From an uncultured Lachnospiraceae bacterium (lineage in GTDB: Bacteria; Bacillota; Clostridia; Lachnospirales; Lachnospiraceae): a stretch of DNA of 42,126 nt. Of this stretch, positions 2,233-28,297 are shown one piece after another. The stretch is taken from positions 1-42,126 of the forward strand of contig CANQDS010000011.1 in the NCBI GenBank assembly GCA_947593655.1. The letters are read 5' to 3'. Below the pieces are notes generated by a model. That model was not told where the DNA came from and did not search any database. It saw only the letters and a list, made by a program, of their open reading frames with translations. Position numbers and translations under genes: made by a program. Each line of letters starts with the position of its first letter. Position 1 is the first letter of the stretch.

Positions 2233-2282
2233 GTCAAACAAGAAGACGCCAGGGAATTCCTTCCGTTGACGTCTTTCGTGCA

Positions 2283-2311
2283 AAAGATCCGCGCACCGCT
2301 TCGGGCGCGGG
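2283..2311 (-). terminator. Hairpin downstream of the TPR-protein gene
   Basis: Arms CCGCGC and GCGCGG enclose a second CCG/CGG stem with a 3-nt loop (2289-2310). On the minus strand this is followed by ATCTTTTG. It lies 22 bp past the stop of the 2333-3691 gene. The U-run is short, so termination may be partial. Confidence 0.4.
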
Positions 2312-2332
2312 AGCCGTTTTCCCGGCATTCGA

Positions 2333-3691: not shown

Positions 3692-3698
3692 ATCTGCC

Positions 3699-3869
3699 TC
3701 ACTCCTGACCTGCGTATGGGCGGCTGCTGTTATTCTGGCGGAATTCCCGCATCATCTCCGATATGATATCCGTAACATCCGTCAGATCATGATTGTAGAT
3801 CGCCGATTCCGCCTCTTCCACTTCCAGGCTCGGCTGAAAATTCTTCAGCTCTTCTTCAAAATTGATCAT
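3699..3869 (-). CDS. Small acidic protein, 56 aa
   Basis: Starts MINFEEELKNFQPSLEVEEA and ends RPYAGQE. It is acidic and probably helical, without a membrane segment or cysteines. A strong GGGAGG lies 5 nt before the ATG, a consensus promoter lies just upstream, and the gene ends 7 bp before the zinc-ribbon/TPR gene. These make it a real gene and the first of a two-gene unit. It may be a soluble partner or regulator of the TPR membrane protein (inference). Confidence 0.75.
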   Translation of the reverse strand: MINFEEELKNFQPSLEVEEAESAIYNHDLTDVTDIISEMMREFRQNNSSRPYAGQE

Positions 3870-3883
3870 GAGAACCTCCCGAA

Positions 3884-3930
3884 AATAAAAAAGCCACTAT
3901 ATTTTTCTCTATCATTATAATATAGTGGCT
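3884..3930 (-). terminator. Intrinsic terminator of the fapA-like gene
   Basis: Perfect 11-bp arms (3892-3902 and 3920-3930, AGCCACTATAT and its complement) with a 17-nt loop. On the minus strand they are followed by TTTTTTATTTT. It lies 58 bp past the stop of the 3988-5385 gene. The hairpin also contains the promoter of the next operon. Confidence 0.8.
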
Positions 3931-3941
3931 CTGATATGCAA
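3914..3941 (-). promoter_or_regulatory. SigA promoter of the 56-aa/TPR operon
   Basis: TTGCAT (3936-3941), a 16-bp spacer and a perfect TATAAT (3914-3919) on the minus strand. Transcription would start near 3907, inside the loop of the upstream gene's terminator. The transcript would then carry only the second arm and the T-run before the GGGAGG of the 56-aa gene. Confidence 0.75.
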
Positions 3942-3987
3942 GTGTATTTGTGTGATAAATTACTAAAAAATATCGCACGAAATTCTT

Positions 3988-5385
3988 TTATCCGACAAAT
4001 TCATCACGGATGGAGAACATCAGCACCTTATCGGCGTTCACTTCAAATTGCACGCACTGCTGCTGTTCCTTGATCTGCACGATGATGTCGTCGATCGCGA
4101 CCGTGCTGCCCGGATAAATGTCGCGGATGATCCGGATCTTAGCGCCTTTCGCCCGCTCCATGATATCGTTCATCTTGCGCAGTTTATCGTTGGCTGTCGC
4201 AAGCTGCGCCTGCTTCATGATCTTCGCACGCATCAGGGCGATCCTGCGCTCGTCATTCTTGACATCAACCTTCTTCGCTTTCGCCATCTCATCGAACTGC
4301 TTCAATCCGAAATTGATCTTCTCAATGATCTCATTGTCCTCGTCGATCTGCCCCTGAATGTCATAAAGCTTCTTCAAAAGACCGCGGTGAACGCCCGCTT
4401 CCACACGGGTTTTGATCTCCTTGTCGTTGCCGCAGCGATCCGTCTCTACGCCTTTCGCACCGTAAACCGTCCCGCCGATAATGCCCGCCGCCCGGCCGCT
4501 GATAAAGATGCGGTCGTAGCTGGTGATATTGCAGTCGAGTACGGAATTGGCGTCAATGATCCCTTCCGCTTCGATGTTCGCATACTCGATGAACTTCGCA
4601 TAAATATTCATCTTGGACTTGATGTTCGTCCGGTACGCGCCTAAAACGCCGCCGCGGAGGATAATATCCTTGCCCGCTTCCATCGTACAGGCTTCCACCG
4701 TGCCGTCCACGGTAATGGAGCCCGTCGCGATGACCGACATTCCGGCGGTAACATTCCCGTGAATCAGAACATCTCCGCGGAAATTGATATTACCGGTCTT
4801 CATATCGACATTCCCGTAAATCTCATAAACTTCGGAAATCATGATCCGGTTATCCTTCCGGTCGATCTTCCCGGTCATATTCGCGGTATAAACCAGATTA
4901 TCCTCGGAACGGTCGAATCCCTTCCCGGTCAGCGGAGGCTGGGAACGCCCGCGCTTCGCATTGATCGGCTTACCGGTTACCGTAACGCCGTTCTCACCGA
5001 TGACCGGCTCGTGGTAAAGGGCAATGACCTGTCCCTCTTCCACGATCTCCACCGCATGGATCGTCCAATAATCTACTGAGCCGTCCTCTTTCACCTCCGG
5101 ACGCGAACTCAGATTCTGGTCGAACTGGAATTCATAGTAGCCGTCCCGGCCGTCTACTGCCGCTTTCCCTCTCGCGATCAAATATTCCCTTCCATAGAGG
5201 CGCTCGGAAATCATCTTATTGATAAGATCATAATCAATTCCTTCGCTGATCCGCTTTGCCGCCAGCGCGTCCATGATCTCTTCCTTTGTATATTGATCTT
5301 CGAATTTGATAATAGGAAGCATCAGGTAAGCTTCCAGTTCGTCATATGAGGTTCTGATAACAACATCGTGCTTTTTTATTTCCAT
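3988..5385 (-). CDS. fapA: FapA-type DUF342 family protein
   Basis: A 465-aa DUF342 polymer-like protein. An N-terminal domain (about 1-170) leads into a glycine-rich right-handed beta-helix (about 175-310, e.g. GNINFRGDVLIHGNVTAGM, then stacked short strands) and a C-terminal coiled coil (about 330-420). DUF342 proteins are annotated as flagellar assembly protein A or polymer-forming proteins; no flagellar gene is nearby, so the flagellar role is uncertain. I place the start at the ATG at 5385 because AGGAG lies 7 nt upstream of it. A TTG 18 nt further upstream would overlap that ribosome binding site. Confidence 0.85.
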   Translation of the reverse strand: MEIKKHDVVIRTSYDELEAYLMLPIIKFEDQYTKEEIMDALAAKRISEGIDYDLINKMISERLYGREYLIARGKAAVDGRDGYYEFQFDQNLSSRPEVKEDGSVDYWTIHAVEIVEEGQVIALYHEPVIGENGVTVTGKPINAKRGRSQPPLTGKGFDRSEDNLVYTANMTGKIDRKDNRIMISEVYEIYGNVDMKTGNINFRGDVLIHGNVTAGMSVIATGSITVDGTVEACTMEAGKDIILRGGVLGAYRTNIKSKMNIYAKFIEYANIEAEGIIDANSVLDCNITSYDRIFISGRAAGIIGGTVYGAKGVETDRCGNDKEIKTRVEAGVHRGLLKKLYDIQGQIDEDNEIIEKINFGLKQFDEMAKAKKVDVKNDERRIALMRAKIMKQAQLATANDKLRKMNDIMERAKGAKIRIIRDIYPGSTVAIDDIIVQIKEQQQCVQFEVNADKVLMFSIRDEFVG

Positions 5386-5423
5386 AGACAAACTCCTGTT
5401 CAAACATGATTATTCGCATCTAT

Positions 5424-5452
5424 ATCATAGCACAACATGAATCAAATTTCAA
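5424..5452 (-). promoter_or_regulatory. Promoter of the fapA-like gene
   Basis: TTGAAA (5447-5452), a 17-bp spacer and TATGAT (5424-5429) on the minus strand, about 40 bp upstream of the chosen start codon. Confidence 0.65.
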
Positions 5453-5586
5453 TTTTTTCTAAGCAATTTGTGTAAAATTTGTGCAAATGAATATAACTGT
5501 CCAGCCATGCGGCAAAATTGACACATTCTTACGGACTTTGCAGCCAGCGCCAGGTTCTGCGCCAAACGATACCAGTCTGTCGGCAT
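5449..5586 (-). CDS. Possible small ORF after valS, 45 aa
   Basis: An ORF of 45 codons begins MPTDWYRLAQNLALAAKSVR and contains one CQFC motif. AGAAGG lies 7 nt before the ATG, and the ORF starts 12 bp after the valS stop. Its stop codon overlaps the -35 element of the next promoter. I recognise no family. It could be a real small gene or chance coding in the valS 3' region. Confidence 0.3.
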   Translation of the reverse strand: MPTDWYRLAQNLALAAKSVRMCQFCRMAGQLYSFAQILHKLLRKN

Positions 5587-5598
5587 GGGAACGCCTTC

Positions 5599-8253
5599 TT
5601 ATGAACAAAGATAGCGGGACAGATTCTTCTCCACCTGCGCCATCATCTGCTCGTACTTCTCCAGCTTCGCCCGCTCCTCGGCAACCTTTTGCGGCTTCGC
5701 ATTCTGCAGGAATTTCTCATTGGACAGCATTCCCTTCGAGCGCGCCAGTTCTTTCGTCAGGCGGTCTTTCTCCTTCTGCAGACGCTCCCGCTCTTTTTCA
5801 AAGTCCACCAGATCCTCCAGCGGGAGGTAAGCGGCCGCGCCCGGAAGCACGACGGATACCGCATCCTCCGGAATGCCCGTTTTATCTTCGCAAACCGCAA
5901 TCCCGTTCGTAAACGCCAGATTGACGTAAACCTCCCGGTTCTGATCGAACACGGCGCGGATGTCCGCATCCTTGGATACCACAAACAGTTTCGCTTTGCG
6001 GGACGGCGGAACTTCCATCTCGGTCCGCACGTTGCGCACGCCTTTCACAAGCTCCTTGCAGCGCTCGATCGCCGCTTCCTCCTCCGGGAAATCCCATTCT
6101 TTACGGTATTCCGGCCAGCGGGAAAGCATGATCGTCTCTTCCTCCGACTGCAGGGTGCAGAAGATCTCCTCCGTGATAAACGGCATATACGGGTGGAGCA
6201 GTTTCAAAGCCTCCTCTAAAACCGTTCTTAACGTCCAGAGCGCCGCATTCGCGGACGACGGATCCTCTTCCTTTTTATAAGTACGCACCTTGGCCATTTC
6301 AATGTACCAGTCACAGAACTCATCCCAGATAAAATCATAGACTTTCTGCACGGCGATCCCGAGTTCGAATTTATCCATATTAAAAGTCACGTCTTTCGCA
6401 AGCGTATTGACTTTCGACAGGATCCATTTATCCGCCGGATGCAGTTCTTCCAGAGACGGCTGTACCGGTTCTGTGCCCTCCAGATTCATCAGAATGAACC
6501 GGGAAGCGTTCCATACTTTATTGGCAAAATTGCGGGAAGCCTCGACGCGCTCCCAGTAAAAACGCATATCATTTCCCGGCGCATTTCCGGTGATCAGCGT
6601 CAGGCGGAGCGCATCCGCCCCGTATTTATCGATCACTTCCAGAGGATCGATGCCGTTTCCGAGCGATTTGCTCATCTTGCGCCCCTGCGAATCACGCACC
6701 AGTCCGTGGAACAAGACCGTGGAGAACGGCGCTTTCCCCATCTGCTCATAACCGGAAAAGATCATGCGGATAACCCAGAAGAAAATAATATCGTATCCCG
6801 TCACCAGCACGTCGTTCGGATAAAAATATTCCAGTTCCGGCGTCTGATCCGGCCATCCCAGCGTGGAAAACGGCCAGAGTGCGGAAGAAAACCAGGTGTC
6901 CAGCGTATCCGGATCCTGCGTCAGATGGCTGCAGCCGCATTTCGGGCAGACCTGCGGCTTCTCGATGGACACCGTCATCTCCCCGCAGGAATCACAGTAC
7001 CACGCCGGGATCCGGTGCCCCCACCAGAGCTGGCGGCTGATGCACCAGTCCCGGATATTATCCGTCCAGTTGAAATACGTCTTATCCATGCGCTTCGGCA
7101 GAAGTTCGATCTCGCCGTTTTTCACGCCTTCCACCGCCGGTTTGATCATCTCATCCATCTTGACAAACCACTGCTGCTTCACCATCGGCTCCACCGTGGT
7201 ATGGCAGCGGTCGTGGGTTCCGACATTGTGGGAATGAGGTTCCACTTTCACTAAAAGCCCCTGCTCTTCCAGATCATGCACCAGCGCTTTCCGGCACTCA
7301 TAGCGGTCCATGCCCTCGTATTTTCCTGCATGGCTGTTCATCGTCGCGTCGTCATTGATGACGATGATCTCCTCCAGATGATGGCGTTTCCCGACTTCAA
7401 AGTCGTTCGGATCATGCGCCGGAGTGATCTTCACGCAGCCGGTTCCAAACTCCCGGTCTACATAAGAATCCGCAATGACCGGAATCTCACGGTCGGTCAT
7501 CGGCAACTTTAATGTTTTCCCGATGATGTCCCGGTAGCGCTCATCCTCCGGATTGACAGCAACCGCCGTATCCCCGAACATCGTCTCCGGACGCGTCGTT
7601 GCGATCTCTACAAACCGGCCTTCTTCGCCCACGACCGGATAATTGATGTGCCAGAAAAAGCCGTCCTGCTCTTCATGTTCCACTTCCGCATCCGAGATCG
7701 AAGTCTTGCAGACCGGGCACCAGTTGATGATACGCGAGCCCTTGTAGATCCAGCCCTTCTGATAGAGCTTGATAAAGACCTCCTGCACCGCGCGGGAACA
7801 GCCTTCGTCCATCGTAAAGCGCTCCCTCTCCCAGTCTGCGGACGAGCCCATCTTCTTCAGCTGCTTAATGATGCGCCCGCCGTATTCTTTCTTCCACTCC
7901 CAGCATTTCTCCAGAAATCCTTCACGCCCCAGCTGCTCTTTCTCAATGCCCTGTTCTTTCAAGGATTCGATCACCTTGACTTCGGTCGCGATCGAAGCAT
8001 GATCCGTACCCGGCTGCCACAAGGCATTGTACCCCTGCATCCGCTTGTAGCGGATCAGGATATCCTGCATCGTATTGTCCAATGCGTGCCCCATGTGGAG
8101 CTGCCCCGTAATATTCGGCGGCGGCATCACGATCGTAAACGGTTTCCGGCTGCGATCCGCCTCGGCATGAAAATAACCGTTCTCTTCCCATTTCTGATAC
8201 AAACGATCCTCAATATCTTTCGGATCATAAGTCTTGCTCAGTTCTCTTTTCAT
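5599..8253 (-). CDS. valS: Valyl-tRNA synthetase
   Basis: Charges tRNA-Val with valine. The 884-aa length is normal for the family. The HIGH signature appears as HMGH (residues 53-56) after PPPNITGQL, and KMSKS is at 527-531. The CP1 editing domain lies between about 190 and 350, and a zinc-binding CxxC...CxxC pair is at about 420-441. The C-terminal ValRS coiled-coil arm (about 815-880) is present. GGGAGG precedes the start. No T-box leader is visible: only 63 bp separate it from the tetR stop and they hold no specifier-loop or T-box core sequence. It may therefore be read through from the upstream efflux operon or use a weak promoter I could not define. Confidence 0.97.
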   Translation of the reverse strand: MKRELSKTYDPKDIEDRLYQKWEENGYFHAEADRSRKPFTIVMPPPNITGQLHMGHALDNTMQDILIRYKRMQGYNALWQPGTDHASIATEVKVIESLKEQGIEKEQLGREGFLEKCWEWKKEYGGRIIKQLKKMGSSADWERERFTMDEGCSRAVQEVFIKLYQKGWIYKGSRIINWCPVCKTSISDAEVEHEEQDGFFWHINYPVVGEEGRFVEIATTRPETMFGDTAVAVNPEDERYRDIIGKTLKLPMTDREIPVIADSYVDREFGTGCVKITPAHDPNDFEVGKRHHLEEIIVINDDATMNSHAGKYEGMDRYECRKALVHDLEEQGLLVKVEPHSHNVGTHDRCHTTVEPMVKQQWFVKMDEMIKPAVEGVKNGEIELLPKRMDKTYFNWTDNIRDWCISRQLWWGHRIPAWYCDSCGEMTVSIEKPQVCPKCGCSHLTQDPDTLDTWFSSALWPFSTLGWPDQTPELEYFYPNDVLVTGYDIIFFWVIRMIFSGYEQMGKAPFSTVLFHGLVRDSQGRKMSKSLGNGIDPLEVIDKYGADALRLTLITGNAPGNDMRFYWERVEASRNFANKVWNASRFILMNLEGTEPVQPSLEELHPADKWILSKVNTLAKDVTFNMDKFELGIAVQKVYDFIWDEFCDWYIEMAKVRTYKKEEDPSSANAALWTLRTVLEEALKLLHPYMPFITEEIFCTLQSEEETIMLSRWPEYRKEWDFPEEEAAIERCKELVKGVRNVRTEMEVPPSRKAKLFVVSKDADIRAVFDQNREVYVNLAFTNGIAVCEDKTGIPEDAVSVVLPGAAAYLPLEDLVDFEKERERLQKEKDRLTKELARSKGMLSNEKFLQNAKPQKVAEERAKLEKYEQMMAQVEKNLSRYLCS

Positions 8254-8316: not shown

Positions 8317-8961
8317 TCAATTATTCAGGGATTTGATAAACCCCTGATAGGCGAAGCAGGCGATCTCCCGATCCTCCATGCCCTCGGTATACGGTCCTTC
8401 CGGCCCCATAACCGTAAACGCATAGCCGACGACCATCATCAGAAACGCCAGTCTGCGCTTTCCCGGATCGGTTTCCGTGTAATAGCCTTCCTGATATCCC
8501 TCTTCTAAAAGGCGCATGATCATCCGCGAAGTATACGCATAGATCCTGCCGTAGAGATCCTGCGGGAGCTGCTCTTTTAATTCCCGACAGCTTTTCACAT
8601 TGCCGAACAGCAGCTGGATCAGCCTCGAATACATGATATTATACTCCCGGTTCTCCCGGATCCACTCCAAAATGCCGTAGATCTTCTCCTCGAAATTCCT
8701 GCAGGCATCCTGTTTCTCGGAAAGCCGCGTGAATTTTCTGGAATATTCATACACAACAGCGTTCGCGATCAGTTCCTCCTTGGAGGAAAAATACTCATAG
8801 GCCGTGCCTTTCCCGATTCCCGCCTTGGAGGTAATATCCGACACCTTGACTCCGCTTAGATCCTGCCGTTCCCGCAGCAGCTCGGACACCGCCCGGTACA
8901 TCTGCAGCACCTTGGGGGAAGGAGCTGTGATATAATCAATATCCACATGGAAATCCTCCAT
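8317..8961 (-). CDS. TetR-family transcriptional regulator of the adjacent RND exporter
   Basis: A 214-aa repressor with the TetR helix-turn-helix near residues 37-62 (ITSKAGIGKGTAYEYFSSKE) and a helical ligand-binding domain. Its ATG overlaps the TAA of the RND gene by one base, and its ribosome binding site (GAGGAGG) lies inside the RND gene, so the two are translationally coupled. A 16-bp palindrome sits at the promoter of the pair, the expected place for autoregulation. The ligand cannot be told. Confidence 0.88.
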   Translation of the reverse strand: MEDFHVDIDYITAPSPKVLQMYRAVSELLRERQDLSGVKVSDITSKAGIGKGTAYEYFSSKEELIANAVVYEYSRKFTRLSEKQDACRNFEEKIYGILEWIRENREYNIMYSRLIQLLFGNVKSCRELKEQLPQDLYGRIYAYTSRMIMRLLEEGYQEGYYTETDPGKRRLAFLMMVVGYAFTVMGPEGPYTEGMEDREIACFAYQGFIKSLNN

Positions 8962-11900
8962 TACAATTCCTCCTCGACCATGCTCTTTTCACGGTTAAAC
9001 GCATCATAAATACACGGGATCACGATCAGCGTCAGAAGCGTTCCGTATACCAGTCCGCCGATGATCGTAATCGCCATCGGTTTCATCATATCCGAACCTT
9101 CCCCGATCCCGACCGCGGAAGTCGACATCGCCAGGATCGTCGTCATCGCCGTCATCAGAATCGGGCGCAGACGCGTGATCCCCGCGTCAATGATCGCATC
9201 CTTCTTGCTCATGCCTTCCCGGCGTGCCTGGTTGATGTAGTCGATCAGTACGATTCCGTTATTGACGATCAGGCCGGCCAGCATGATAAAGCCGAGCATG
9301 GAAATGATGCTGACCTCATAGCCGCTGAAAAACAGGGCAAGAAATCCTCCGGTAAACGCCAGCGGGATCGAAAACATGATGATAAACGGCGATACCAGCG
9401 ACTGGAACTGCGCCACCATGATCAAATAGATGAAGACGACGGAAAGCACCAGCATCAGCATCATCTGATGCATGGATTCGTTGATCGTCTCATCCTCTCC
9501 CTCCATAGAGATCGAATATCCTTCCGGAATATCCAGTTCCTTCAACCGGTCCTTAACCTCGTTGCTGACCAGCGTAACATTGTGGTCTTCGTCAATCCCG
9601 CAGGAAACGGTCAGATACCGGTTCTGCGCATCGCGGCTGATGGTGGAAAGCGTCATCGTATCCTCCATCGTACAGATCTCGTCTAGCGGGACTTCCTTTT
9701 CATTTCCTTCCTTATCCGTCCACGAAAACGTCAGCTTGCGGATATCGTCCAGCTGCGCCGCCGACTGCTCCTCCGTCTGCACATAAACCTCGTAATCCTT
9801 GACATCGGTCGTAACCGTCGTCGCCGAAGCCGCGTCTGCCATCTTATCATACACCAATTGGAAGACCTGCGCCACTGTATATCCGTATTCCGCCGCTTTT
9901 TCTTTGTCAACCGTAATCGAAAGCTGCGGAGTCTGGTTATCCAGTCCATCGTCGATGTCCTGCGTTCCTTCCACATCTTCTAACAGTTCCGCCGTCTGCG
10001 CCGCAAGTTCCTGCAGCTTCTGAATATCGTGCCCTTTGATCTGCAGAGAAAGCCCTTCCCCGAAAAACGCCGTAAAGTCCATCGCGGACGCGCTTGTCGT
10101 CACCAGACAGTCCATGTCCGCCGTGCGCGAAAGGATCTCTTTTTCCACATTCTGCACGGAAACATCCGCATCTTCATCCAGAATAATGTACATCGTAACG
10201 CTGTCGCCGCCGTCTCCCAGAAGGCTCATCGTGGAATTTCCGCCCGCCATCGCTCCGATCGTCTGGATTCCTTCGATATCGGAAATCTTCTCAATGACTT
10301 CATCGGAACAGCCGGTCAGTTCGTCAAATGTTAAGCTTTCCTCATCTTTCGCCGAAATGCTGACCGAAAGCTGGTTCGTTTCCATGTCCATATCCATGAA
10401 CGTCATTCCGCGCGACAGTGATGCCGCCGCACTTAATACCAGCATCCCGACCGCTGCCACGAATACGATCGGCTTAAAGCGCAGGCACACGGCAAGGCAT
10501 TTCCCGTAAAACTCTTTGACCGCATCAAACCACGGATACCGGACTTCACGCGATTTCTTCAGCATCGCGGACGAAAGCGCCGGTACAAACGTCAGCGCAA
10601 CAGCCAGGCTGGCCAGCAGCGTAAAGGCGATCGTAAGCGCCAGATCCATAAACAGCTGCCGTGTGATCCCTTCGGTAAAGATGATCGGCGCATAAACGCT
10701 GACCGTGGTCAGTGTAGAGGCTACGATCGCGCCCGCCACCTGTGACGCGCCCTCCACCGACGCCTTGCGGATGGAGTATCCTTCACTCCGCAGACGATAG
10801 ATATTTTCAATGACAACGATCGAGTTATCCACAAGCATACCGATTCCAAGCACCAGACCGGACATGGAAATGATGTTTAACGTAATTCCGGTAAAGTACA
10901 TCAGCACGATCGCCGCGATCACGGAAAGCGGGATCGAGCAGGCGATAATGATCGTCGGCCTGATATTCTTTAAAAACAAAAACAGTACGATGATCGCCAG
11001 CACCGCTCCGACGATCATATTCTGGATCACGCTGTCCACGATCATATCGATGTAGACGCCCTGATCCATCAAAACGGAAAAATGAAGCCCTTCCGTCTCT
11101 TTCTCCAGCGTTTCAAACCGATCCAGCAGACGGTCGGTAACATCTCCCGTCGAGTATCCGGTCTGCTTCTCCATAGAAAGCATAATGCCCGGATTTCCAT
11201 TGATAATGGCGTAAGAATCGTCCGAATTGTCCGTCACTTCAATATCCGCCACATCGGAAAGACGGATAATGCCTACATCTTCCATTCCCAGATCCATCAG
11301 TACCAGATCATCAAGTTCTTCCACTTTCTCCACGCCTTTTCCGACCCGCACCAGATACTGTGTGCTGCCGTCATATGCGTATCCCGCCGGCATGTCAAAA
11401 TTCTGGGCGGTCAGGATCCCTCCTAATGTCTGGACCGTCAGGATCTCATTCAGATCGGCGGATTCATAAGCCGTATTTTTGGCCTCATCCAGCGAAGTCT
11501 GCGCACTTTCCAAAGAAGAAGCCGCCGTCGCAAGCTGTGCGGAACTGCTTCCCATCTGGATCGCCGCCAGCACGGCATTTGCATTCAGGGTGTCCAGTGC
11601 CCCGGCAAGCGTCACTTTCCCCGCTTCGATCTGCTCTAAGGCCGTCTCGATCGTATCGATCCCCGTATTGATCTGAGTCAGAAACGTTCCGACCGCGGCA
11701 GATGCAGAGGAAAGATCGTCCATGCCGTTGACCGTAATCCCCATCGCCGACAGTCCCGCAAAATTCTGCGCGACCGCCGCATCCGCCTCGGCGCGCTGCG
11801 CCTGCAGGGTATCCAGCTGCGTCTGCAGCTGCGCCTGAAGCGCCTCGATCTGATCCTCCGGCAGATTCATTCCGCCTATGGCATCAAGGAGCGCCTGCAG

Positions 11901-12794
11901 CTGCGTAAGGCTGTAGTCTAACACCTGCAGCCGGGAATAGTCTTCCGACTCCCGAAAGGCGCTGATCCCGTTCTGCACCAGTTCCAGCTGCTCTTTCTGT
12001 GTTTCCAATTCGGAAAGCTGTGTTTTCAAATCGGATTCCGTTTTGTAGAGCTGTTCTTTCTGATCTAAAACCTGCTGGTACGCTTCATTCATCTGCTGCG
12101 CGCCGGAATCCAGAGCGCTCTGGCCGCTCTCCACCTGATTTTTCCCGGAATCCAGTTCGTTCTGCGGCTCCACAAACTGCGCATCGATCTCATCATGGAT
12201 CTTCTGGTTCAGCGCATCGATCTTCTCCTGATCCAGCGTTACCTCGATCCGCTCCTCGATCTGGCCGGTGACATTCACCGACGCCACGCCTTCCAGACTC
12301 TCCAGGGACGGCGTCAGCTCCGCGTCCACATAATCGGAAAGCGCAGACGCATCCATTCCGTCTACATCGACGGCCGCCGTGAGCACCGGCATCATGTCCG
12401 GATTGATCTGCATGATCATCGGCGTGCCGACCGAATCATCCCATGTGCCTTCCAGCTGGTCCAGCTTCTGCTGGATCTCGATCACGACCGAGTCCATATT
12501 CGCATTCTGCGCGTATTCCAGCACAACCATCGAATAACTGTTGCTGGACGAGGACGTGATATTCTTAATATTCGAAGTCGTCGCCATCGCCGCTTCGATC
12601 GGAGCGGTCACATCCGTCTCCACTTTTTCCGGGCTCGCCCCCATATCCATCGTTATTACCATCGCGTACTGCAGGCTCATATCCGGCAGCAGATCCGTCG
12701 TCATCCGCGTCAGGGAGACGACCCCGAGCACGATCACGAGCAGCACGCCCACCAGTACGGTATAAGGTTTTTTCACACTGTATTTGGAAATCAT
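8961..12794 (-). CDS. RND-superfamily exporter (AcrB/SwrC type) with a coiled-coil insertion
   Basis: A 1277-aa proton-driven exporter. One membrane helix is at the N-terminus (about 12-30). Two groups of further helices follow (about 570-760 and 1110-1270), with the two large extracytoplasmic loops between. The DNSIVVIENIYR stretch is RND-typical. The protein is about 230 residues longer than AcrB because residues ~195-450 are a Gln/Glu-rich helical coiled-coil stretch in the first porter loop. Neither a membrane-fusion protein nor an outer-membrane channel is encoded nearby, as expected for a Gram-positive. The insertion might replace the adaptor (inference). Substrates are unknown; antimicrobial or lipid-like compounds are usual for the family. 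Confidence 0.92.
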   Translation of the reverse strand: MISKYSVKKPYTVLVGVLLVIVLGVVSLTRMTTDLLPDMSLQYAMVITMDMGASPEKVETDVTAPIEAAMATTSNIKNITSSSSNSYSMVVLEYAQNANMDSVVIEIQQKLDQLEGTWDDSVGTPMIMQINPDMMPVLTAAVDVDGMDASALSDYVDAELTPSLESLEGVASVNVTGQIEERIEVTLDQEKIDALNQKIHDEIDAQFVEPQNELDSGKNQVESGQSALDSGAQQMNEAYQQVLDQKEQLYKTESDLKTQLSELETQKEQLELVQNGISAFRESEDYSRLQVLDYSLTQLQALLDAIGGMNLPEDQIEALQAQLQTQLDTLQAQRAEADAAVAQNFAGLSAMGITVNGMDDLSSASAAVGTFLTQINTGIDTIETALEQIEAGKVTLAGALDTLNANAVLAAIQMGSSSAQLATAASSLESAQTSLDEAKNTAYESADLNEILTVQTLGGILTAQNFDMPAGYAYDGSTQYLVRVGKGVEKVEELDDLVLMDLGMEDVGIIRLSDVADIEVTDNSDDSYAIINGNPGIMLSMEKQTGYSTGDVTDRLLDRFETLEKETEGLHFSVLMDQGVYIDMIVDSVIQNMIVGAVLAIIVLFLFLKNIRPTIIIACSIPLSVIAAIVLMYFTGITLNIISMSGLVLGIGMLVDNSIVVIENIYRLRSEGYSIRKASVEGASQVAGAIVASTLTTVSVYAPIIFTEGITRQLFMDLALTIAFTLLASLAVALTFVPALSSAMLKKSREVRYPWFDAVKEFYGKCLAVCLRFKPIVFVAAVGMLVLSAAASLSRGMTFMDMDMETNQLSVSISAKDEESLTFDELTGCSDEVIEKISDIEGIQTIGAMAGGNSTMSLLGDGGDSVTMYIILDEDADVSVQNVEKEILSRTADMDCLVTTSASAMDFTAFFGEGLSLQIKGHDIQKLQELAAQTAELLEDVEGTQDIDDGLDNQTPQLSITVDKEKAAEYGYTVAQVFQLVYDKMADAASATTVTTDVKDYEVYVQTEEQSAAQLDDIRKLTFSWTDKEGNEKEVPLDEICTMEDTMTLSTISRDAQNRYLTVSCGIDEDHNVTLVSNEVKDRLKELDIPEGYSISMEGEDETINESMHQMMLMLVLSVVFIYLIMVAQFQSLVSPFIIMFSIPLAFTGGFLALFFSGYEVSIISMLGFIMLAGLIVNNGIVLIDYINQARREGMSKKDAIIDAGITRLRPILMTAMTTILAMSTSAVGIGEGSDMMKPMAITIIGGLVYGTLLTLIVIPCIYDAFNREKSMVEEEL

Positions 12795-12817
12795 TGTTCT
12801 CCTCCGTTTCCGTTCCC

Positions 12818-12833
12818 GACCGACTGGTCGGTC
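12818..12833. promoter_or_regulatory. TetR operator palindrome
   Basis: Perfect 7-bp arms GACCGAC and GTCGGTC separated by TG. It lies 11 bp downstream of the -10 element, over the likely transcription start of the RND-tetR operon. This is the size, symmetry and placement of a TetR-family operator. Confidence 0.8.
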
Positions 12834-12844
12834 AGTCGATTATT

Positions 12845-12935: not shown

Positions 12936-14318
12936 TCAGAACTGGAAATATACAAACGGAGCCTCTCCCGTAAATGCAAGCGCTAAAACCAAGCCGCAAG
13001 CGGTAAAAAACGCAGTCAGCCCCCAGAAACTGTTCAAGTTTACAACCGGATAATATCCGCTGACGCTGTTTTTCTTCCGGGAATGAAGCACAGCCGCCAC
13101 CGTTGCGATCATGACAAAAGCGATAGAAATATATGACCACATAAAATTCTGCACAATCCCGTTCTGCAGCGTAACAATCCCCCGGATCACATTCCACGCA
13201 TCAGTAAAGGTATCTGCACGGAAAAAGATCCATGTAAAAGTAATAAAGCAGTAAGTAACTACAATTCCTGCCGCTTTTCCGGGCAGGGAAGAAATTTCTC
13301 TTTTCCGCAGCTTATCCAGACAGAGGGCAAAACCGTTCAATGCGCCCCAGAAAACAAAGGTCCAACTTGCGCCGTGCCAGAGGCCGCCCAGAAGCATGGT
13401 AATAAAAAGATTGACATACTGCCGTTTCTTTCCCTTCCGATTCCCGCCAAGCGGAATATATAAATACTCCTTCAGCCATGTGGAAAGGCTGATGTGCCAT
13501 CTGCGCCAAAATTCCGTAATACTTGCAGAAATATAAGGCAGATTAAAATTCGGCAGAAAATCATACCCAAAGCATTTTGCACATCCGATTGCAAGATCCG
13601 AATATCCGGAAAAATCAAAATAAATCTGCAATGAATAAGAAACAGCCGCCAGAATCAGAGTCTTCCAATCATATGCAGAAGGCGCATAAAAAACATCATC
13701 CACAAAGACAGACATATGATCTGCAAGAACAATCTTTTTTAACAAACCGAACACCATAAGCTGCACACCGTACTCAATACCCTTTAAGGAAACTCTTCTC
13801 TCCTCATCCAGCTGCGGCAGAAAATCCTTCGCCTTCACAATCGGTCCGGCAACCAGCTGCGGAAAAAAGCTGATATACAATGCAAGTTTTATAAAATCCT
13901 TTTCCGCGCTTATTTTTTCCCTTTTCACATCGATCACATAACTTAAAGCCTGAAAAGTATAAAAAGAAATGCCTACCGGAAGGATAATGTTCAAAATTCC
14001 GGTTTTACGTCCGAACAAAGCAGAAAAAGACGCAAGGAAGAAATTAAAATATTTAAATACTGCAAGTACGATGAGCGGAACTGCCACACCGGCAAAAAAG
14101 GCAATCCGGTTTTCTGCGTATTGCGCAGTAAAATAAGCCGCAGTTGTCACAAACAGCAGCAAAAAGCAAAAGCGCCAGTCCCAGTACCCGTAAAAAAAAT
14201 AACTTGCCGTTAATAAAAAAATATGTTTTCCCTTTCTGCCGCATTTTCTCTCCAAAACTGCCGTCCCAAACAGAACTGTAATAAAAAATATAAAAAATTC
14301 AATGGATGCAAAAGACAT
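12936..14318 (-). CDS. MBOAT-family membrane O-acyltransferase (AlgI/DltB/PatA-like)
   Basis: A 460-aa polytopic protein that transfers acyl groups, usually acetyl, to a surface polymer. It has about 10-12 membrane helices. Conserved MBOAT elements are FDFSGYSDLAIG (about 234-245), the FWRRWHISLSTWLKEYLYIP block (about 270-289) and the catalytic histidine in GGLWHGASW (His315). It lies 22 bp after the SGNH gene with AGGAG before its start, so the two form one operon in the usual pairing of MBOAT importer and SGNH transferase. It is richer in A and T than its housekeeping neighbours. No polymer-synthesis genes are adjacent, so the acceptor polymer is unknown. Confidence 0.92.
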   Translation of the reverse strand: MSFASIEFFIFFITVLFGTAVLERKCGRKGKHIFLLTASYFFYGYWDWRFCFLLLFVTTAAYFTAQYAENRIAFFAGVAVPLIVLAVFKYFNFFLASFSALFGRKTGILNIILPVGISFYTFQALSYVIDVKREKISAEKDFIKLALYISFFPQLVAGPIVKAKDFLPQLDEERRVSLKGIEYGVQLMVFGLLKKIVLADHMSVFVDDVFYAPSAYDWKTLILAAVSYSLQIYFDFSGYSDLAIGCAKCFGYDFLPNFNLPYISASITEFWRRWHISLSTWLKEYLYIPLGGNRKGKKRQYVNLFITMLLGGLWHGASWTFVFWGALNGFALCLDKLRKREISSLPGKAAGIVVTYCFITFTWIFFRADTFTDAWNVIRGIVTLQNGIVQNFMWSYISIAFVMIATVAAVLHSRKKNSVSGYYPVVNLNSFWGLTAFFTACGLVLALAFTGEAPFVYFQF

Positions 14319-14340: not shown

Positions 14341-15339
14341 TTATTTTTCCATCATCTGATAAAGTTCATCCGCAATCATTTCATGCCCATATCGGTTCAG
14401 ATGCCCGCTGCCGACTGATGAATTGCAAAAACCATGCGGAAGGATATGGCGGGATTCGTATTCACGCTGAAAACGTTCCGTCATATCTAAAAACGCAATT
14501 CCGTTTTTATCACACAAAACAGAAAACGTTTCCCTGGCATCTGCATCATCCGGCAGTTTTAATGTGCCGTCAGCATGGATTCCGCCCGCCGGATGATAGA
14601 CAATAATTATTTTCACCTGATTCTCCGCCGCAATTCCACTGAGCATGGAAAGTACATTGTCAAGCTGCCCTCTGCTGTCTTCAACTTCAGCCGAAAAACT
14701 TCCGACAGCCTCCTGCTCATCTTCAGAAGCTTGTCCCAAAAAACCTTTCAGCTGAGAATACAGCAGCCTTATGAATTGATTCTTCGATAAAAAAGCAAGA
14801 ACCCCTTTGGAATGATCCGCAATTTCCGGAACCTCACCATTCAAAACAGAATCCAGTTCTTCCGGGCTAAAATCTAATCGTGCCGTTTCAACTACAACAT
14901 ATTCTTCCGGATGGTAGTATTCAACGGCTGCCTTGAAATTGCTGCAGCAGGTTAAAAAATTATGTCCCGATATTCCAATATTATAAACAATTCGATCCTG
15001 CAGCAGCCCGTTCAGTCTTGCTGCCGTATTTTCATTCTGGGCAACCTGATAGGCTTCCATATGCGAAGATCCCATGACAAGAGTATGTATTTCCATTCCC
15101 TCTTCATAATCAAAAGGATTAATAAATCCCTCGTTATTTGTTCTCCCTGCCGCAATTCCTTCCGTACAACGGGAATAAAATGCATCCGGATTCCATTTAT
15201 AATCGGTGGTTCCACTGTTGTTAGGATAATGAACCGGAACGTTATAGTAAAACAGACAAAAGACGGTCATGATCAAAAAAGCTGCACAGCCTGCTGAAAA
15301 TGCCTTTGCAAACCATATACAGACAGACTTGAAATTCAT
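14341..15339 (-). CDS. SGNH-hydrolase-like acyltransferase partner of MBOAT (AlgX/DltD-like)
   Basis: A 332-aa protein with an N-terminal membrane anchor (about 10-33) and an extracytoplasmic domain. The nucleophile motif is VMGSSHMEAY (Ser91/Ser92, His93), like the GxSH of DltD/AlgX proteins. The C-terminal His block is GSGHLNRYGH (His313). The acidic residue usually three positions before this histidine is not present (Gly310), so the catalytic triad may be incomplete or use another acid. Together with the MBOAT protein it probably O-acylates an exported polysaccharide or wall polymer. The start follows AAGGGGG. Its promoter appears to lie on the invertible segment immediately upstream. Confidence 0.8.
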   Translation of the reverse strand: MNFKSVCIWFAKAFSAGCAAFLIMTVFCLFYYNVPVHYPNNSGTTDYKWNPDAFYSRCTEGIAAGRTNNEGFINPFDYEEGMEIHTLVMGSSHMEAYQVAQNENTAARLNGLLQDRIVYNIGISGHNFLTCCSNFKAAVEYYHPEEYVVVETARLDFSPEELDSVLNGEVPEIADHSKGVLAFLSKNQFIRLLYSQLKGFLGQASEDEQEAVGSFSAEVEDSRGQLDNVLSMLSGIAAENQVKIIIVYHPAGGIHADGTLKLPDDADARETFSVLCDKNGIAFLDMTERFQREYESRHILPHGFCNSSVGSGHLNRYGHEMIADELYQMMEK

Positions 15340-15356
15340 CTTTTATTTCCCCCTTA

Positions 15357-15388
15357 GCAGTTTGTAAAAGTGTACTTTTTCAAACTGC
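15357..15388. repeat. Left recombination site (IRL) of the invertible segment
   Basis: Two 15-bp half-sites, GCAGTTTGTAAAAGT and ACTTTTTCAAACTGC, with one mismatch in the dyad, surround a 2-bp GT core at 15372-15373. Half-sites around a 2-bp crossover are the plan of serine-recombinase sites. The core GTGTACTTTTTCAAA is shared exactly, in inverted orientation, with IRR. Confidence 0.8.
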
Positions 15389-15429
15389 TGCTTTCGATAA
15401 AAGGGTGATCAGGAAAATATGAAAACGCC

Positions 15430-15458
15430 TTGACTTTAATCTGCTTTTCTGATATATT
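15430..15458 (+). promoter_or_regulatory. Invertible promoter, currently facing away from the SGNH-MBOAT operon
   Basis: TTGACT (15430-15435), a 17-bp spacer and TATATT (15453-15458) on the plus strand. It is the only good promoter between the two inverted sites. In this orientation it fires into the 3' end of the recombinase gene (antisense). After inversion it would sit with its -10 near 15402-15407 on the minus strand and give a 5' leader of about 55 nt ahead of the SGNH gene. Confidence 0.75.
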
Positions 15459-15473
15459 GCATATGCTGATAAT

Positions 15474-15501
15474 AATTTGAAAAAGTACACATTTTCAAAT
15501 T
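15474..15501. repeat. Right recombination site (IRR) of the invertible segment
   Basis: Half-sites AATTTGAAAAAGT and ACATTTTCAAATT (one dyad mismatch) around an AC core at 15487-15488, which is the GT core of IRL read on the other strand. The site overlaps the last two codons of the recombinase gene, but the crossover point lies 7 bp beyond its stop, so inversion would leave the coding sequence intact. Confidence 0.8.
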
Positions 15502-16112
15502 GTTACCGAATCTTTTTCGTCAGCTTTTTCAAACTCACGCACTTTATGGTAAAACGTCCCGATTGGCAGATTGCATGCCTCTGCCGCCTCCCGGAGTGTT
15601 AATTTTTTGTTTCTCCAAGCCTTACGCACAATATGAAAATTCTTTGGCAGCGGAACCGGAGGCCGCCCAAATCTTACCCCTTTGCTTCTTGCCGCGGCAA
15701 TGCCTTCCGCCTGCCTCTGCCGAATGTTTTCACGTTCATTTTCTGCAGCAAAACTTAAAACCTGCAATACTATATCACTCAAAAACGTCCCCATAAGATC
15801 TTTTCCGCACCGGGTATCGAGCAGCGGCATATCAATCACACAAATATCGGCTCCTTTCTCCTTGGTGATTATACGCCACTGTTCCTGTATTTCTCCATAA
15901 TTCCGTCCAAGGCGGTCAATGCTTTTAATGTAAAGCAGATCATCCCGCCTTAGTCTGTGCAGCAGCTTCTGATAATCCGGACGGTTAAAATCCTTCCCCG
16001 ACTGTTTATCAATATAAATATTCTCCTCTGGAATCTCAGCTGCCTTCATCGCAATCATCTGCCTGTCTTCATTCTGTTCTCTGGTGCTGACCCGAATATA
16101 CCCATAAATCAT
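15495..16112 (-). CDS. Serine recombinase (resolvase/invertase family)
   Basis: A 205-aa recombinase with the small-subunit plan. The catalytic domain starts MIYGYIRVSTREQNEDRQ (nucleophile Ser9), arginines of the active site lie in SIDRLGRNY, and a long E-helix spans about 105-140. The C-terminal DNA-binding helix-turn-helix is at about 165-192 (TLREAAEACNLPIGTFYHK). Its 3' end touches one of two inverted dyad sites with a 2-bp core, so it is the obvious candidate to invert the promoter segment. AAGGA lies 8 nt before the start. A TATAAT lies upstream at 16210-16215 without a clear -35. No transposase is present, which argues against a Tn3-type transposon. Confidence 0.92.
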   Translation of the reverse strand: MIYGYIRVSTREQNEDRQMIAMKAAEIPEENIYIDKQSGKDFNRPDYQKLLHRLRRDDLLYIKSIDRLGRNYGEIQEQWRIITKEKGADICVIDMPLLDTRCGKDLMGTFLSDIVLQVLSFAAENERENIRQRQAEGIAAARSKGVRFGRPPVPLPKNFHIVRKAWRNKKLTLREAAEACNLPIGTFYHKVREFEKADEKDSVTI

Positions 16113-16245
16113 CTGATGTTCCTTTTCCCTCCGCTTTTATTTTTGTCTGACTGCATATGTGAAGCATTTTCGCGCTTAGAATAAGATCTGCCTTTCCTCC
16201 GATACACATATTATAACGATGTTCTGGTGATTTTTCTTTTTCAGA

Positions 16246-16274
16246 TTGACTTTTTTTTAATACCCGCGCATAAT
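16246..16274 (+). promoter_or_regulatory. Promoter of the AAA-ATPase-like gene
   Basis: TTGACT (16246-16251), a 17-bp spacer and CATAAT (16269-16274), 30 bp upstream of the start codon. Confidence 0.65.
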
Positions 16275-16304
16275 AAAACCATAAAATTGCGGAAGGAGGC
16301 GCCT

Positions 16305-17570
16305 ATGATGACCAAAATAATGCCGGCTGAAGAAACCCTGCTGCCGCTGCCTGTCGGCGTATCGGATTACCGTCTGGCCACCGCAGAATATTATTATGTT
16401 GATAAAACCATGATGATCCGGGATTTTCTCGATGAACGGCCGATGGTATCGCTTTTTACGCGCCCCCGCCGTTTTGGGAAAACATTAAATATGGATATGC
16501 TCCGCACCTTTTTCGAGAAAACAGACGAGGACACTTCCATTTATTTCCAAGATAAAAAAATCTGGAACTGCGGAGAAAAATATCGGAAGTATCAAGGGCA
16601 GTACCCCGTGATCTTTGTTACCTTCAAGGATATAAAAAAGGACACCTGGCAGGAAACCTATGACAGTATCGCACAGATGATCATTCTGGAATTTAAAAGA
16701 CACGCGGAACTAAATGACAGTCCCAGAGTCAGCGACCGCGATTATTACCGGAAAGTCATTCATGGAGACGCAAGCAGAAACGACATGGAAAATTCCTTTA
16801 TGATGCTCACCAAAATGCTCCATGACCATCACGGCACGGCTCCGGTTCTGATCATCGACGAATATGATACGCCTATCCAGCAGGGATATCTGCGCGGTTT
16901 TTACGATGATGTGATCCTTTTTATGCGCAACCTGTTTTCGGGCGGAATGAAAGACAACCGGCATCTCTCGTTCGGTTTTCTGACCGGTGTGCTCCGTGTT
17001 TCAAAAGAAAGTATTTTCAGCGGATTGAATAATCTGAAGATCAATTCCGTTTTAGATCAAAAATACAGTTCTTATTTTGGTTTTACCCCCGAAGAGGTAC
17101 AGGAAATGGCTCACTATTACGGGGTTTCCGATAAATATGAAGAAATTTGCGAATGGTATGACGGATACCGTTTTGGCCAGTCGGATATTTTCAATCCGTG
17201 GTCTGTGATCAATTATTTCAGCAGCGGATGTGAACCAAGGGCTTTCTGGCTGTCTACCGGCAGCAATGACATCATCGGGGAACTGATCGGCCTTGCCGAT
17301 CAGGATATCTATGACCGGCTGGCTTCTCTGGTAAAAGGCGAAACATTTACTGCTTATATTGACACAAATGTCATTTACCCGCAGATTCAGAACAATCCCT
17401 CTACCGTCTATGGTTTCCTTCTGGTTGCGGGATATCTGAAAGCAGTCAGAACCTCCCTCTCTTTTACCGGTGATTTTCTGTGCGAAGTTGCATTACCGAA
17501 TAAAGAAATTTCTTTTGTCTACAAAAAAGAAATACTTCAAAAACTAAACCGTTACAAAAGCCATACCTGA
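16305..17570 (+). CDS. AAA-ATPase-like protein (PF09820 type) lacking the usual C-terminal PD-(D/E)XK nuclease domain
   Basis: A 421-aa member of the 'AAA-ATPase-like plus DUF1703 nuclease' family, which is common in gut Firmicutes and Bacteroidetes and of unknown function. It starts with the conserved LPVGVSDY and YYVDKT elements. Walker A is RPRRFGKT (Lys59) and Walker B is LIIDEYDTPI (Asp185/Glu186). Full-length members continue for over 100 residues into a PD-(D/E)XK nuclease domain after the VALPNKEI motif. Here the protein ends 28 residues after the start of that motif, so the nuclease is missing. I chose the ATG at 16305 (or the next one at 16308) because AAGGAGG lies just upstream; the longer GTG frame has no ribosome binding site. 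It may be inactive or a shortened variant. Confidence 0.8.
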   Translation: MMTKIMPAEETLLPLPVGVSDYRLATAEYYYVDKTMMIRDFLDERPMVSLFTRPRRFGKTLNMDMLRTFFEKTDEDTSIYFQDKKIWNCGEKYRKYQGQYPVIFVTFKDIKKDTWQETYDSIAQMIILEFKRHAELNDSPRVSDRDYYRKVIHGDASRNDMENSFMMLTKMLHDHHGTAPVLIIDEYDTPIQQGYLRGFYDDVILFMRNLFSGGMKDNRHLSFGFLTGVLRVSKESIFSGLNNLKINSVLDQKYSSYFGFTPEEVQEMAHYYGVSDKYEEICEWYDGYRFGQSDIFNPWSVINYFSSGCEPRAFWLSTGSNDIIGELIGLADQDIYDRLASLVKGETFTAYIDTNVIYPQIQNNPSTVYGFLLVAGYLKAVRTSLSFTGDFLCEVALPNKEISFVYKKEILQKLNRYKSHT

Positions 17571-25695: not shown

Positions 25696-27672
25696 TCACG
25701 TCATCCGGTTTAACGCCGACCTGAGCAGACTCCGGTAATCCGCTTTTTTTACCCAGCAGGAAGTCTGTTTCAATCCGCCTTCCGATTCCGGTATCAGCTG
25801 CCGCCGCTCATCTTCAAAATATTCCATGCTGATAAACCGGCTTTTCCCCAGAAACTGCGTACCGGTCTTTGTCTTCGTATCGGTCAGATGGATCGTGATC
25901 ATCCGTTCCGTCACATTTCCCGAACTGTCCGTCACCACCGCGTTTTCCGTCACGCTCCCGCTTTGGGTCAGATACAGGAAATCAGACGCCGCATAATCCG
26001 TAAGCAGAAAAGAGTTGCTCCCGTTGTTTCCGTAAGGAATCCTCCCGTCCTCCGGGTCGGTCGCCGCCATATGAGATGCCAGTTCCCGTTCCGTCAGCCT
26101 TCCGCGCTGTGCATCCGCCAGCGTATAATACAAATCCTTTGCCTGCACCGCGGGCGCTAAATCCCAGACCGCATACAGCGTAATCCTGGCATGGTTTGTA
26201 TTGGACACGCCCGCCAGCCGGACAAGATTTTTGACCGAAAACTCCGACTCCGGAGGATATTCCGGCGTCACGGCATCTGCCGCCATGCTCCAGCCCAGAA
26301 AGGTGCAGCGCTCCGACTCCCTCTTATAGCGGTTCCGGGGGATCCGCAGCGTTTCTTCGTAACCGGCCTCCAGATCCGCCATGCTTCCCCCGTCCGCGCC
26401 GTTTCCGTCAAACACGAATGTGTACCTGTTTTCCTCCCATACGCCGTACAAAGAAACGGCCGGGGCATATTTGCTGATCCAGTCGGAAGAAACGGAATTT
26501 GTGATCGTATACTCCGCCTTTTCCGCTCCGGCGGAATGCGCCCATCCGGTCAGCTGATACCCCTCTCTGCTCCACTTCGGATCCGCAAACGCCTGCCCCG
26601 TATTCCCATAGGAAAATACCTGGCTGCGCGTCACGCTGTCCGAACCGGCCTGATTCCGGTAAAACGTCACCGTCACCGCAAGCTGCTTTGCATATGCAGT
26701 CCATGCACAGCTGCCCCGGACGCAGTACTGAAATTCCTTCTCATAAAAAAGCATCGGCCCGTTCCAGTAGGAAAATTCGTATCCGGTTTCCAAAACGGCC
26801 TTGATCGTCGCCGTGGCTCCATAGCAATAAGTACCGCCGCCCGATACCGATTTGATCCCGACCCCTTTACTAAGGGTAATGGTGTAGAACAATCCGGATA
26901 CGGACTTATTATAAAATCCCTGCAGGGCAATTTTCGAATCGCTGCTCCAGTTCGCCGCACCCGCGATTCCCTGATACGTCGTATAAACCGTTCCCCAGGT
27001 CTTTCCGTTGTCGTCGATCCCGCCCTGGGGTGCACCGTTTTTCACAACTACCATGCAGGCATCAAAAACAATCCGGCAGTTTCCGCTGTTCATGGCCGAT
27101 AACGCCGATTCCTTCATCCGCCCTTTGATGTTAGAGAGCGCGATCCGGTAAAGGTCGTACTGATAACTGCCGACGTCCGTAATATTGATGCACGCCATAT
27201 TGCTTCCGCCCATCTGGTAATAAATGGTCTGCAGAAGGCTGCCGCTGTTATTTTTGATCGAAACCTTCCAGCCGACGGTTCGAAAACGGATCCCGGCGGT
27301 CGACATTCTGGCTCCCGTGGAATAATACAGGTATCCGTCGTTCTGCGTCGTCGCCGAGAAAACCACCTGATTTCCGTAAGTAGTATTATAAGTATACGCA
27401 TTATCAAACGCCCCGGCATAGACCTCCTCCTTCGGAGGCACGGCGCCGGCAGCAGCCGCCAGCACGCACAGAAACGCCAGCACATAAGGGAGCACTCTTT
27501 CCGGTTGCGTTTTCTTTCTTCCCATTTCCTCTGCCTTCCGTTTCTTTTTCGCCGTGTTCTTTACCTTCCGTTTCTTTTCCTCCGTATTCTTTCCTTTCAT
27601 TTCCTCTGCCTTCTGTTTCTTTTTCGCTGTGTTCTTTGCCTTCTTAAAAATTCCGATCTTCCTCCTTTGCAC
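25696..27672 (-). CDS. InlB-repeat adhesin-like secreted protein, last gene of the Tad-like operon
   Basis: A 658-aa exported protein. A lysine-rich N-terminal repeat region (about 10-55) precedes a hydrophobic export segment (about 61-80; VLPYVLAFLCVLAAAAGAV). A beta-rich domain (about 90-300) follows, then Listeria-Bacteroides-type repeats recognisable by FSYW, YQLTGW and CTFLGW blocks (about 300-510), then an Ig-like domain (about 515-620; VTDSSGNVTERMITI). No LPXTG anchor is present. The start is unresolved: GTG at 27672 lies 4 bp after the previous stop but has no ribosome binding site upstream, while AGGAGG lies just inside the frame. Position and domains suggest a pilus-associated adhesin (inference). 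Confidence 0.8.
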   Translation of the reverse strand: MQRRKIGIFKKAKNTAKKKQKAEEMKGKNTEEKKRKVKNTAKKKRKAEEMGRKKTQPERVLPYVLAFLCVLAAAAGAVPPKEEVYAGAFDNAYTYNTTYGNQVVFSATTQNDGYLYYSTGARMSTAGIRFRTVGWKVSIKNNSGSLLQTIYYQMGGSNMACINITDVGSYQYDLYRIALSNIKGRMKESALSAMNSGNCRIVFDACMVVVKNGAPQGGIDDNGKTWGTVYTTYQGIAGAANWSSDSKIALQGFYNKSVSGLFYTITLSKGVGIKSVSGGGTYCYGATATIKAVLETGYEFSYWNGPMLFYEKEFQYCVRGSCAWTAYAKQLAVTVTFYRNQAGSDSVTRSQVFSYGNTGQAFADPKWSREGYQLTGWAHSAGAEKAEYTITNSVSSDWISKYAPAVSLYGVWEENRYTFVFDGNGADGGSMADLEAGYEETLRIPRNRYKRESERCTFLGWSMAADAVTPEYPPESEFSVKNLVRLAGVSNTNHARITLYAVWDLAPAVQAKDLYYTLADAQRGRLTERELASHMAATDPEDGRIPYGNNGSNSFLLTDYAASDFLYLTQSGSVTENAVVTDSSGNVTERMITIHLTDTKTKTGTQFLGKSRFISMEYFEDERRQLIPESEGGLKQTSCWVKKADYRSLLRSALNRMT

Positions 27673-27676
27673 TTGC

Positions 27677-28288: not shown

Positions 28289-28297
28289 CTTCTTCTC

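Follow-up and report, generated by a model that had tools for sequence, protein, structure and literature searches.

A probable promoter-inversion cassette with a Sin-like serine recombinase precedes an SGNH-MBOAT operon in a Lachnospiraceae bacterium

Recombinases of the Sin and Tn552 Bin3 type resolve directly repeated sites that come with accessory sites. Small serine recombinases of the Hin/Gin type invert a promoter segment lying between inverted sites, as outlined for Hin in a section of PMC11868660. In Bacteroides, the serine recombinase Mpi controls inversions at polysaccharide loci, and a section of PMC5903667 counts at least thirteen scattered regions on which it acts. The part of that paper dealing with C. 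difficile describes Cdi5, a short invertible element before an MBOAT/SGNH operon that is partly RecV-dependent. According to sections of PMC11892184, Clostridia-like strains of a defined gut community have a median of 3 invertons per genome, compared to 8.5 for Bacteroidota, and it is a tyrosine-type recombinase that accompanies the clostridial inverton group showing the strongest link to an enzyme. The sections of that paper on this group name the enzyme classes only as tyrosine-type or site-specific integrase, and its supplements may list others.

The locus analysed here lies in a 42,126-nt stretch of DNA (the window) from an uncultured Lachnospiraceae bacterium, whose draft genome comprises 3.09 Mb in 186 contigs and is 87% complete. 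It very probably holds a dedicated promoter-inversion cassette in front of an SGNH-MBOAT operon. The recombinase gene, two dyad sites, the SGNH-like gene and the MBOAT gene follow one another in the minus-strand direction, with the following features:

15495..16112, minus strand: small serine recombinase, Sin/Bin3-like, 205 aa, intact, with Ser9, Arg7, Arg67 and Arg70 present
15470..15505, no strand: right recombination site (predicted), recombinase-proximal, a dyad with centre AC (minus-strand GT) at 15487-15488
15469..15498, minus strand: weaker promoter-like match TTGAAA-18-TATTAT (10/12 match), overlapping the right site and directed towards the operon
15430..15458, plus strand: sigma-70-type promoter TTGACT-17-TATATT with TG before the -10, assigned by consensus match, facing the recombinase (antisense)
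15374..15486, no strand: invertible segment (predicted), 113 bp between cores and 115 bp centre to centre
15356..15389, no strand: left recombination site (predicted), operon-proximal, a dyad with centre GT at 15372-15373, matched by the family site matrix
15349..15355, minus strand: Shine-Dalgarno-like AAGGGGG, 9 nt before the SGNH-like ATG
14341..15339, minus strand: SGNH/GDSL-like protein with a hydrophobic N-terminus, 332 aa, from weak profile matches
12936..14318, minus strand: MBOAT O-acyltransferase, DltB-like, 460 aa, from Pfam and structure-chain matches

The original prediction of a pair of inverted dyad sites, their 15-bp cores identical, around a segment of about 113 bp is borne out. 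The core, GTGTACTTTTTCAAA, lies at 15370-15384 on the plus strand and at 15476-15490 on the minus strand, so that the two GT centres are mutually inverted, which is the geometry that gives inversion. The arms at 15355-15384 and 15476-15505 are 87% complementary across 30 nt, and each site is a dyad in itself (94% for the left and 88% for the right). When the entire window was scanned for dyads (14-nt arms, 2-nt centre, up to 2 mismatches), only these two sites came up. Similarly, only two places in the draft genome match the 24-nt shared core at up to 3 mismatches, and the reversed pattern used as a control gave 0 matches. The recombinase gene does touch the right site as predicted, its stop codon (15495-15497) lying inside it, and the SGNH-like ATG begins 16 nt beyond the left site instead of the predicted 18 bp. 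The inverted repeats surround a promoter, as in an inverton, the promoter being assigned by consensus only.

The recombinase matches the Pfam family Resolvase (PF00239) with 94.9 bits against a cut-off of 23.3. Its closest solved chains are those of Sin/Bin3 (PDB 2r0q and 5c31; E 1e-29). Ser9, Arg7, Arg67 and Arg70, which we take to be the catalytic residues, are kept in at least 190 of the 192-194 aligned loci, the window's included. For the two other recombinases of the same genome (C31 and C108; loci L021 and L027), no site pair scored above threshold. An AAA-ATPase-like protein (16227-17570) adjoins the recombinase; at E 1e-8, none of the other recombinase loci searched has a match to it.

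The identity of the MBOAT protein proved firm, with 129.6 bits for PF03062 (cut-off 27) and matches to DltB structures at E about 2e-26. That of its SGNH partner is weak but consistent: GDSL_2 matches both the window protein (P0002; E 0.016) and its homologue L191 (E 5e-6) below the curated cut-off, and blocks of GxSH.E and GxGHxN are invariant in four aligned SGNH-like sequences. Matches to TesA-type profiles were weak (E about 1), and the single-sequence fold reached a pLDDT of 35. SGNH-like homologues occur in six other genomes, and in all five of those examined (G330 left out) an MBOAT gene follows the SGNH-like gene; no Sin-like recombinase was found near these pairs in the sequence stretches of the five genomes. 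By eye, genes resembling glycan-synthesis genes lie close by in three of the four homologue loci read (L191, L226 and L228, not L227). An MBOAT protein with a separate SGNH partner is described for O-acetylation of alginate and peptidoglycan in the sections of PMC9558356 on AlgI/AlgX and PatA/PatB. Given these known pairs and the glycan-gene neighbours, acylation of a surface glycan is the likely role of the window's pair; the original prediction that a surface polymer is O-acylated fits these neighbourhoods. Switching of the pair might also alter lysozyme or phage sensitivity.

Two further gene groups of the window were read by eye. An RND-type transporter gene with a TetR-type regulator (8317-12840) has its own promoter-like sequence, with the palindrome CGACTGGTCGGTCAGTCG nearby at 12821-12838. 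The pump gene was set aside as an operon member for this promoter-like sequence and the operator-like palindrome, and these genes probably form a separate autoregulated operon. Minus-strand genes at 25696-32303 in the list of open reading frames resemble a Tad/type II-like secretion or pilus cluster, with a CpaF-like ATPase (30822-31898) and, at its end, a large secreted-looking repeat protein (25696-27672).

The strongest promoter of the segment, TTGACT-17-TATATT, faces away from the operon, and its -10 ends 28 nt from the centre of the right site. It had been called the only good promoter, which is slightly too strong a wording, as TTGAAA-18-TATTAT is directed towards the operon and scores 10.7 on a simple scale, compared to 12.1. 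Upon computed inversion, the best operon-directed score rises from 10.7 to 12.1, and it is this orientation that places the promoter before the gene. Measured to the SGNH ATG, its -10 is then 62 nt away and its predicted start about 55 nt. The segment was originally described as caught OFF, which the computed rise makes likely, although basal expression could arise by transcription running on out of the co-directional recombinase gene or from the weaker promoter.

These two sources also lie behind the reading in which the switch is real and the operon nevertheless stays on, inversion tuning only its level or timing. The co-directional recombinase gene stands upstream, with no terminator-like site found on the operon strand between it and the operon, and the promoter-like match lies over the right site. 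Against this, that match is the weaker of the two, it is not visible by eye in the alignment with the 79%-identical relative L194, and bound recombinase would cover it. We therefore hold pure tuning to be rather unlikely, though well short of negligible, and favour a promoter-inversion cassette that switches the operon.

The same layout recurs among relatives of the recombinase. One set came from a scan of named genomes, which confirmed 585 relatives and of which the best 80 (66-75% identical) were kept; another came from searching 392 genomes of the order (28 loci examined, 24 counted). Pairs were counted with a site matrix omitting the tested locus, and named-genome loci needed at least 260 nt downstream. 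A site pair was detected in 48 of 72 named-genome loci (from the best 80 of 585) and in 17 of 24 order-level loci, one of which, L195, repeats L043, to which it is identical around the cassette. Among the first, mostly less similar relatives (21 counted of 23) the pair was found in 3. No pair was thus detected in 24, 7 and 18 loci of these sets, respectively, nor within 360 nt of the recombinase in any of 72 viral-contig relatives. Control chunks of 420 nt from elsewhere in the same loci yielded 0/1052, 0/86, 0/78 and 0/725 (0/1,941 in all). With the full matrix, an inverted pair shows up in 65 of the 96 named-genome (best 80 of 585) and order-level loci; in no locus do same-orientation sites form the only pair, a single site or sites lacking a partner were seen in 12, and 19 have no site. 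In many named-genome relatives, a dyad with the core GTGTAC lies shortly past the recombinase stop and its inverted partner 94-196 bp further on, one accepted pair (L016), at 80 bp, falling outside this range.

In a motif-free scan for pairs, 47 of 170 loci scored higher than any of 510 shuffles, and several pairs detected by the matrix escaped it. On a quick tree of 183 rows (70 with a pair, 113 without), the pair label changes 32 times; as detected, the site pair is therefore not a clean clade trait, and the tree was not used as support. The viral-contig locus L118 has an inverted pair that starts 301 nt past the recombinase stop, and a strong promoter lies 30 nt from its exit site. Seven distant relatives (L012, L022, L024, L028, L124, L127 and L134; 49-61% identity) show a similar plan with other central dinucleotides (AT, AA/TT), and some of their site pairs are palindromic and thus without polarity. 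L072 (a Clostridiales MAG) and L074 (Granulicatella seriolae) are identical at 2588 of 2597 aligned positions over the recombinase and the start of the segment, their cassettes having the same orientation as far as L072 reaches; such identity suggests a mobile element carrying the cassette.

In the cassettes, the promoter keeps an almost constant distance to one of the two sites. Pairs within 600 nt gave 70 cassettes, or 62 after removal of the near-duplicates L200, L195, L109, L036, L207, L081, L079 and L060, with the window and L118 included; as L060 is gene-facing, its removal lowers the gene-facing count. A promoter scoring at least 10 on the simple scale is present in 51 of the 62. Its -10 ends 37-40 nt from the centre of the exit site in 33 of these 51 cassettes, and 27-31 nt from it in eight, the window (28 nt) among them. 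For the 49 promoters less than 70 nt from the exit site, the distance to that site has a spread of 7.7 nt, compared to 20.8 nt for the other site, and 32 aligned segments show little conservation outside the hexamers and the extended -10. Inversion in silico raised the gene-directed promoter score in 49 of the 62 cassettes, lowered it in 10 and left 3 tied (Wilcoxon P 6e-7). Moreover, a co-directional ORF of more than 100 aa starts within 150 nt past the far site in 36 of 52 loci (median 40 nt). A stricter test for a promoter at the canonical distance called 29 of 52 loci OFF and 2 ON, and 21 failed; the window's promoter did not pass, because at 28 nt it lies 10 nt nearer the site than the common 38 nt. 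The spacing of the sites gave a helical phasing of R 0.70 at about 10.4 bp, which was reached in 54 of 5000 trials with clusters jittered and in 289 of 5000 with clusters as single points. Being modest once clusters are the units, it is not claimed as established.

Most clear promoters (44 of 51) face the recombinase and only seven face the gene (binomial P 1e-7), the latter at the usual distances in L054, L074, L085 and L201 and at unusual ones in L046, L065 and L010. Assemblies show one orientation, presumably that of the majority, which leaves two options: these populations are usually gene-off, or that state is actively maintained. A promoter facing the recombinase would make antisense RNA to its gene and might thereby stabilise the state. 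This bias is what speaks for the reading that the usual orientation serves mainly as antisense control of the recombinase, the state being held and ON only a short excursion. However, each assembly records a single, presumably majority orientation, and selection against costly downstream genes could produce an equal bias. As an account of what the usual orientation is mainly for, antisense control therefore seems to us improbable but still worth weighing, and we retain promoter inversion for control of the downstream gene as the principal function.

Direct evidence of inversion for the cassette family, at the level of sequence, comes from a comparison of two loci. L043 (an Acetatifactor MAG) and L060 (Merdimonas faecis) have one cassette in common, together with the HKD-Snf2 helicase gene that follows it. 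Their flanks align in the same direction, with 485 of 605 positions identical on the recombinase side and 885 of 1000 on the gene side, whereas the interior is 80/94 identical when inverted and 49/79 otherwise. The outer half-sites are retained and the inner halves are swapped at the central GT. Serine recombinases exchange strands at a 2-bp core, so the central GT is the point expected for such an enzyme. This is one species pair, and no second clear inverted pair was found among the compared segments.

The same comparison weighs against the possibility that the dyads are static operators or RNA hairpins, acting in autoregulation or attenuation with no inversion at all. On the operon leader strand, each site indeed folds into a hairpin (the 181-nt region has z -3.6, and 2 of 200 shuffles fold equally well), and the window's own genome assembly shows a single orientation. 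Yet homologous cassettes stand inverted with exchange at the central GT, the residues at the presumed catalytic positions are conserved, and the 65/96 inverted pairs (best 80 of 585 plus order-level) face 0/96 that are solely same-way. Static dyads are thus very unlikely, and the inversion cassette remains the preferred reading.

The genes behind the cassette differ widely among relatives. LRR, SLH and Ig-like proteins, surface-located by look, follow it in L065, L076, L077 and L098, and glycan enzymes in L075 and L087, with only a sub-threshold O-antigen ligase match in L031. A cytosine methylase with a restriction enzyme lies downstream in L095, Eco57I-type methylases in L053, and the HKD-Snf2 helicase with a type IIG-like protein in L043. 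Restriction-modification or helicase genes were noted after the cassette in these three loci as well as in L097, L101, L103, L108 and L109, on the basis of PADLOC scans for L043, L053, L095 and L108, by Pfam matches below cut-offs for L097, and by likeness for L101, L103 and L109. TnpB-like (IS605 OrfB) genes follow in L033, L046 and L088, the last domain-scanned and the others called by likeness. The order-level search gave L229 as the locus with the recombinase nearest to the window's (79%), and its site spacing (115 bp) and promoter distance (28 nt) equal the window's values. Downstream of its cassette (2036-6994) stand a TIR-TPR gene, with its ATG as called about 170 nt past the site, and then a reverse transcriptase gene, possibly a phase-variable defence pair. 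That such unrelated genes stand behind the cassette indicates that it is modular.

It is scarcely credible that the pair was left behind by a Sin/Bin3-type resolvase system of a plasmid or transposon, made for resolution and not for gene control: the closest solved chains are Sin/Bin3 and 410 plasmid records hold relatives (all below 60% identity, and 50-53% among the 30 listed), but the sites are inverted and not direct, promoter and co-directional ORF start recur at set distances, and the downstream genes are diverse.

We propose that the recombinase pairs the two dyad sites after binding them and then cleaves and religates the DNA at the central GT, which inverts the 113-bp segment. In the assembled orientation, transcription from the promoter would cross the right site and run antisense into the recombinase gene, leaving the SGNH-MBOAT operon without a strong promoter and OFF, perhaps with basal read-through. 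In the inverted orientation, the promoter would have its -10 62 nt ahead of the SGNH start codon and would drive SGNH-MBOAT, the products of which probably transfer acyl groups to a surface glycan. Flipping by the adjacent serine recombinase, as first predicted, is well supported within the family by the layout and by the L043/L060 pair; for the window's organism we infer inversion, the OFF state, regulated expression, an acylated polymer and a phenotype. A wider and distinctly tentative generalization would be an extensive, portable Clostridia family of minimal cassettes comprising a Sin-like serine recombinase, two dyads about 94-196 bp apart and a promoter at a set position, with no accessory element evident, placed by different lineages before unrelated surface or anti-phage genes; transcription antisense to its own recombinase might make the switch asymmetric, its OFF state being stable and its ON state brief. 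The set geometry of such a compact serine-recombinase cassette offers a read-free sequence signature by which clostridial surface and defence genes that may be phase-variable could be found.

Neither invertible promoters nor serine invertases are new as kinds of element; the newer part is the serine-recombinase cassette family. No description of a Sin-like family of this kind was found in the literature searched, which included few subscription papers, so that the result is no proof of absence. Compared to Sin and Tn552 Bin3, which work on direct repeats, the window has two inverted dyads flanking a promoter; directly repeated res sites are lacking, and there is no further site copy in the draft genome. 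Like the Hin/Gin-type invertases, the enzyme is a small serine recombinase next to a promoter segment between inverted sites. However, it is nearer to Sin/Bin3 (E 1e-29) than to chains named DNA-invertase (E 2e-16) and thus falls outside the DNA-invertase branch, and the cassettes are short (94-196 bp, with L016 at 80 bp) with the recombinase outside. Mpi resembles it as a serine recombinase acting at polysaccharide loci, but the window's recombinase scores 51.4 against the Mpi family NCBIfam PRK13413 (cut-off 272) and has two sites in the draft genome, whereas the account in PMC5903667 gives Mpi thirteen or more scattered targets. Clostridial inverton group 139 likewise has a neighbouring recombinase, of the tyrosine type according to the sections on it in PMC11892184. 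Cdi5 is a published counterpart, so MBOAT/SGNH switching in clostridia is better described than had been supposed. As portrayed in the Cdi5 part of PMC5903667, the invertible element stands before a clostridial operon for a putative membrane-bound O-acetyltransferase and an SGNH hydrolase-like protein, as in the window. The gene order differs, being MBOAT, SGNH and a third gene for Cdi5 and SGNH then MBOAT in the window. In addition, Cdi5 inversion depends partly on the tyrosine recombinase RecV, whereas the window has an adjoining Sin-like serine recombinase in place of a tyrosine recombinase, the cassette being a small flipper of one enzyme and two sites. Altogether, this comparison suggests that unrelated recombinases have brought MBOAT/SGNH operons under inversion control on more than one occasion.
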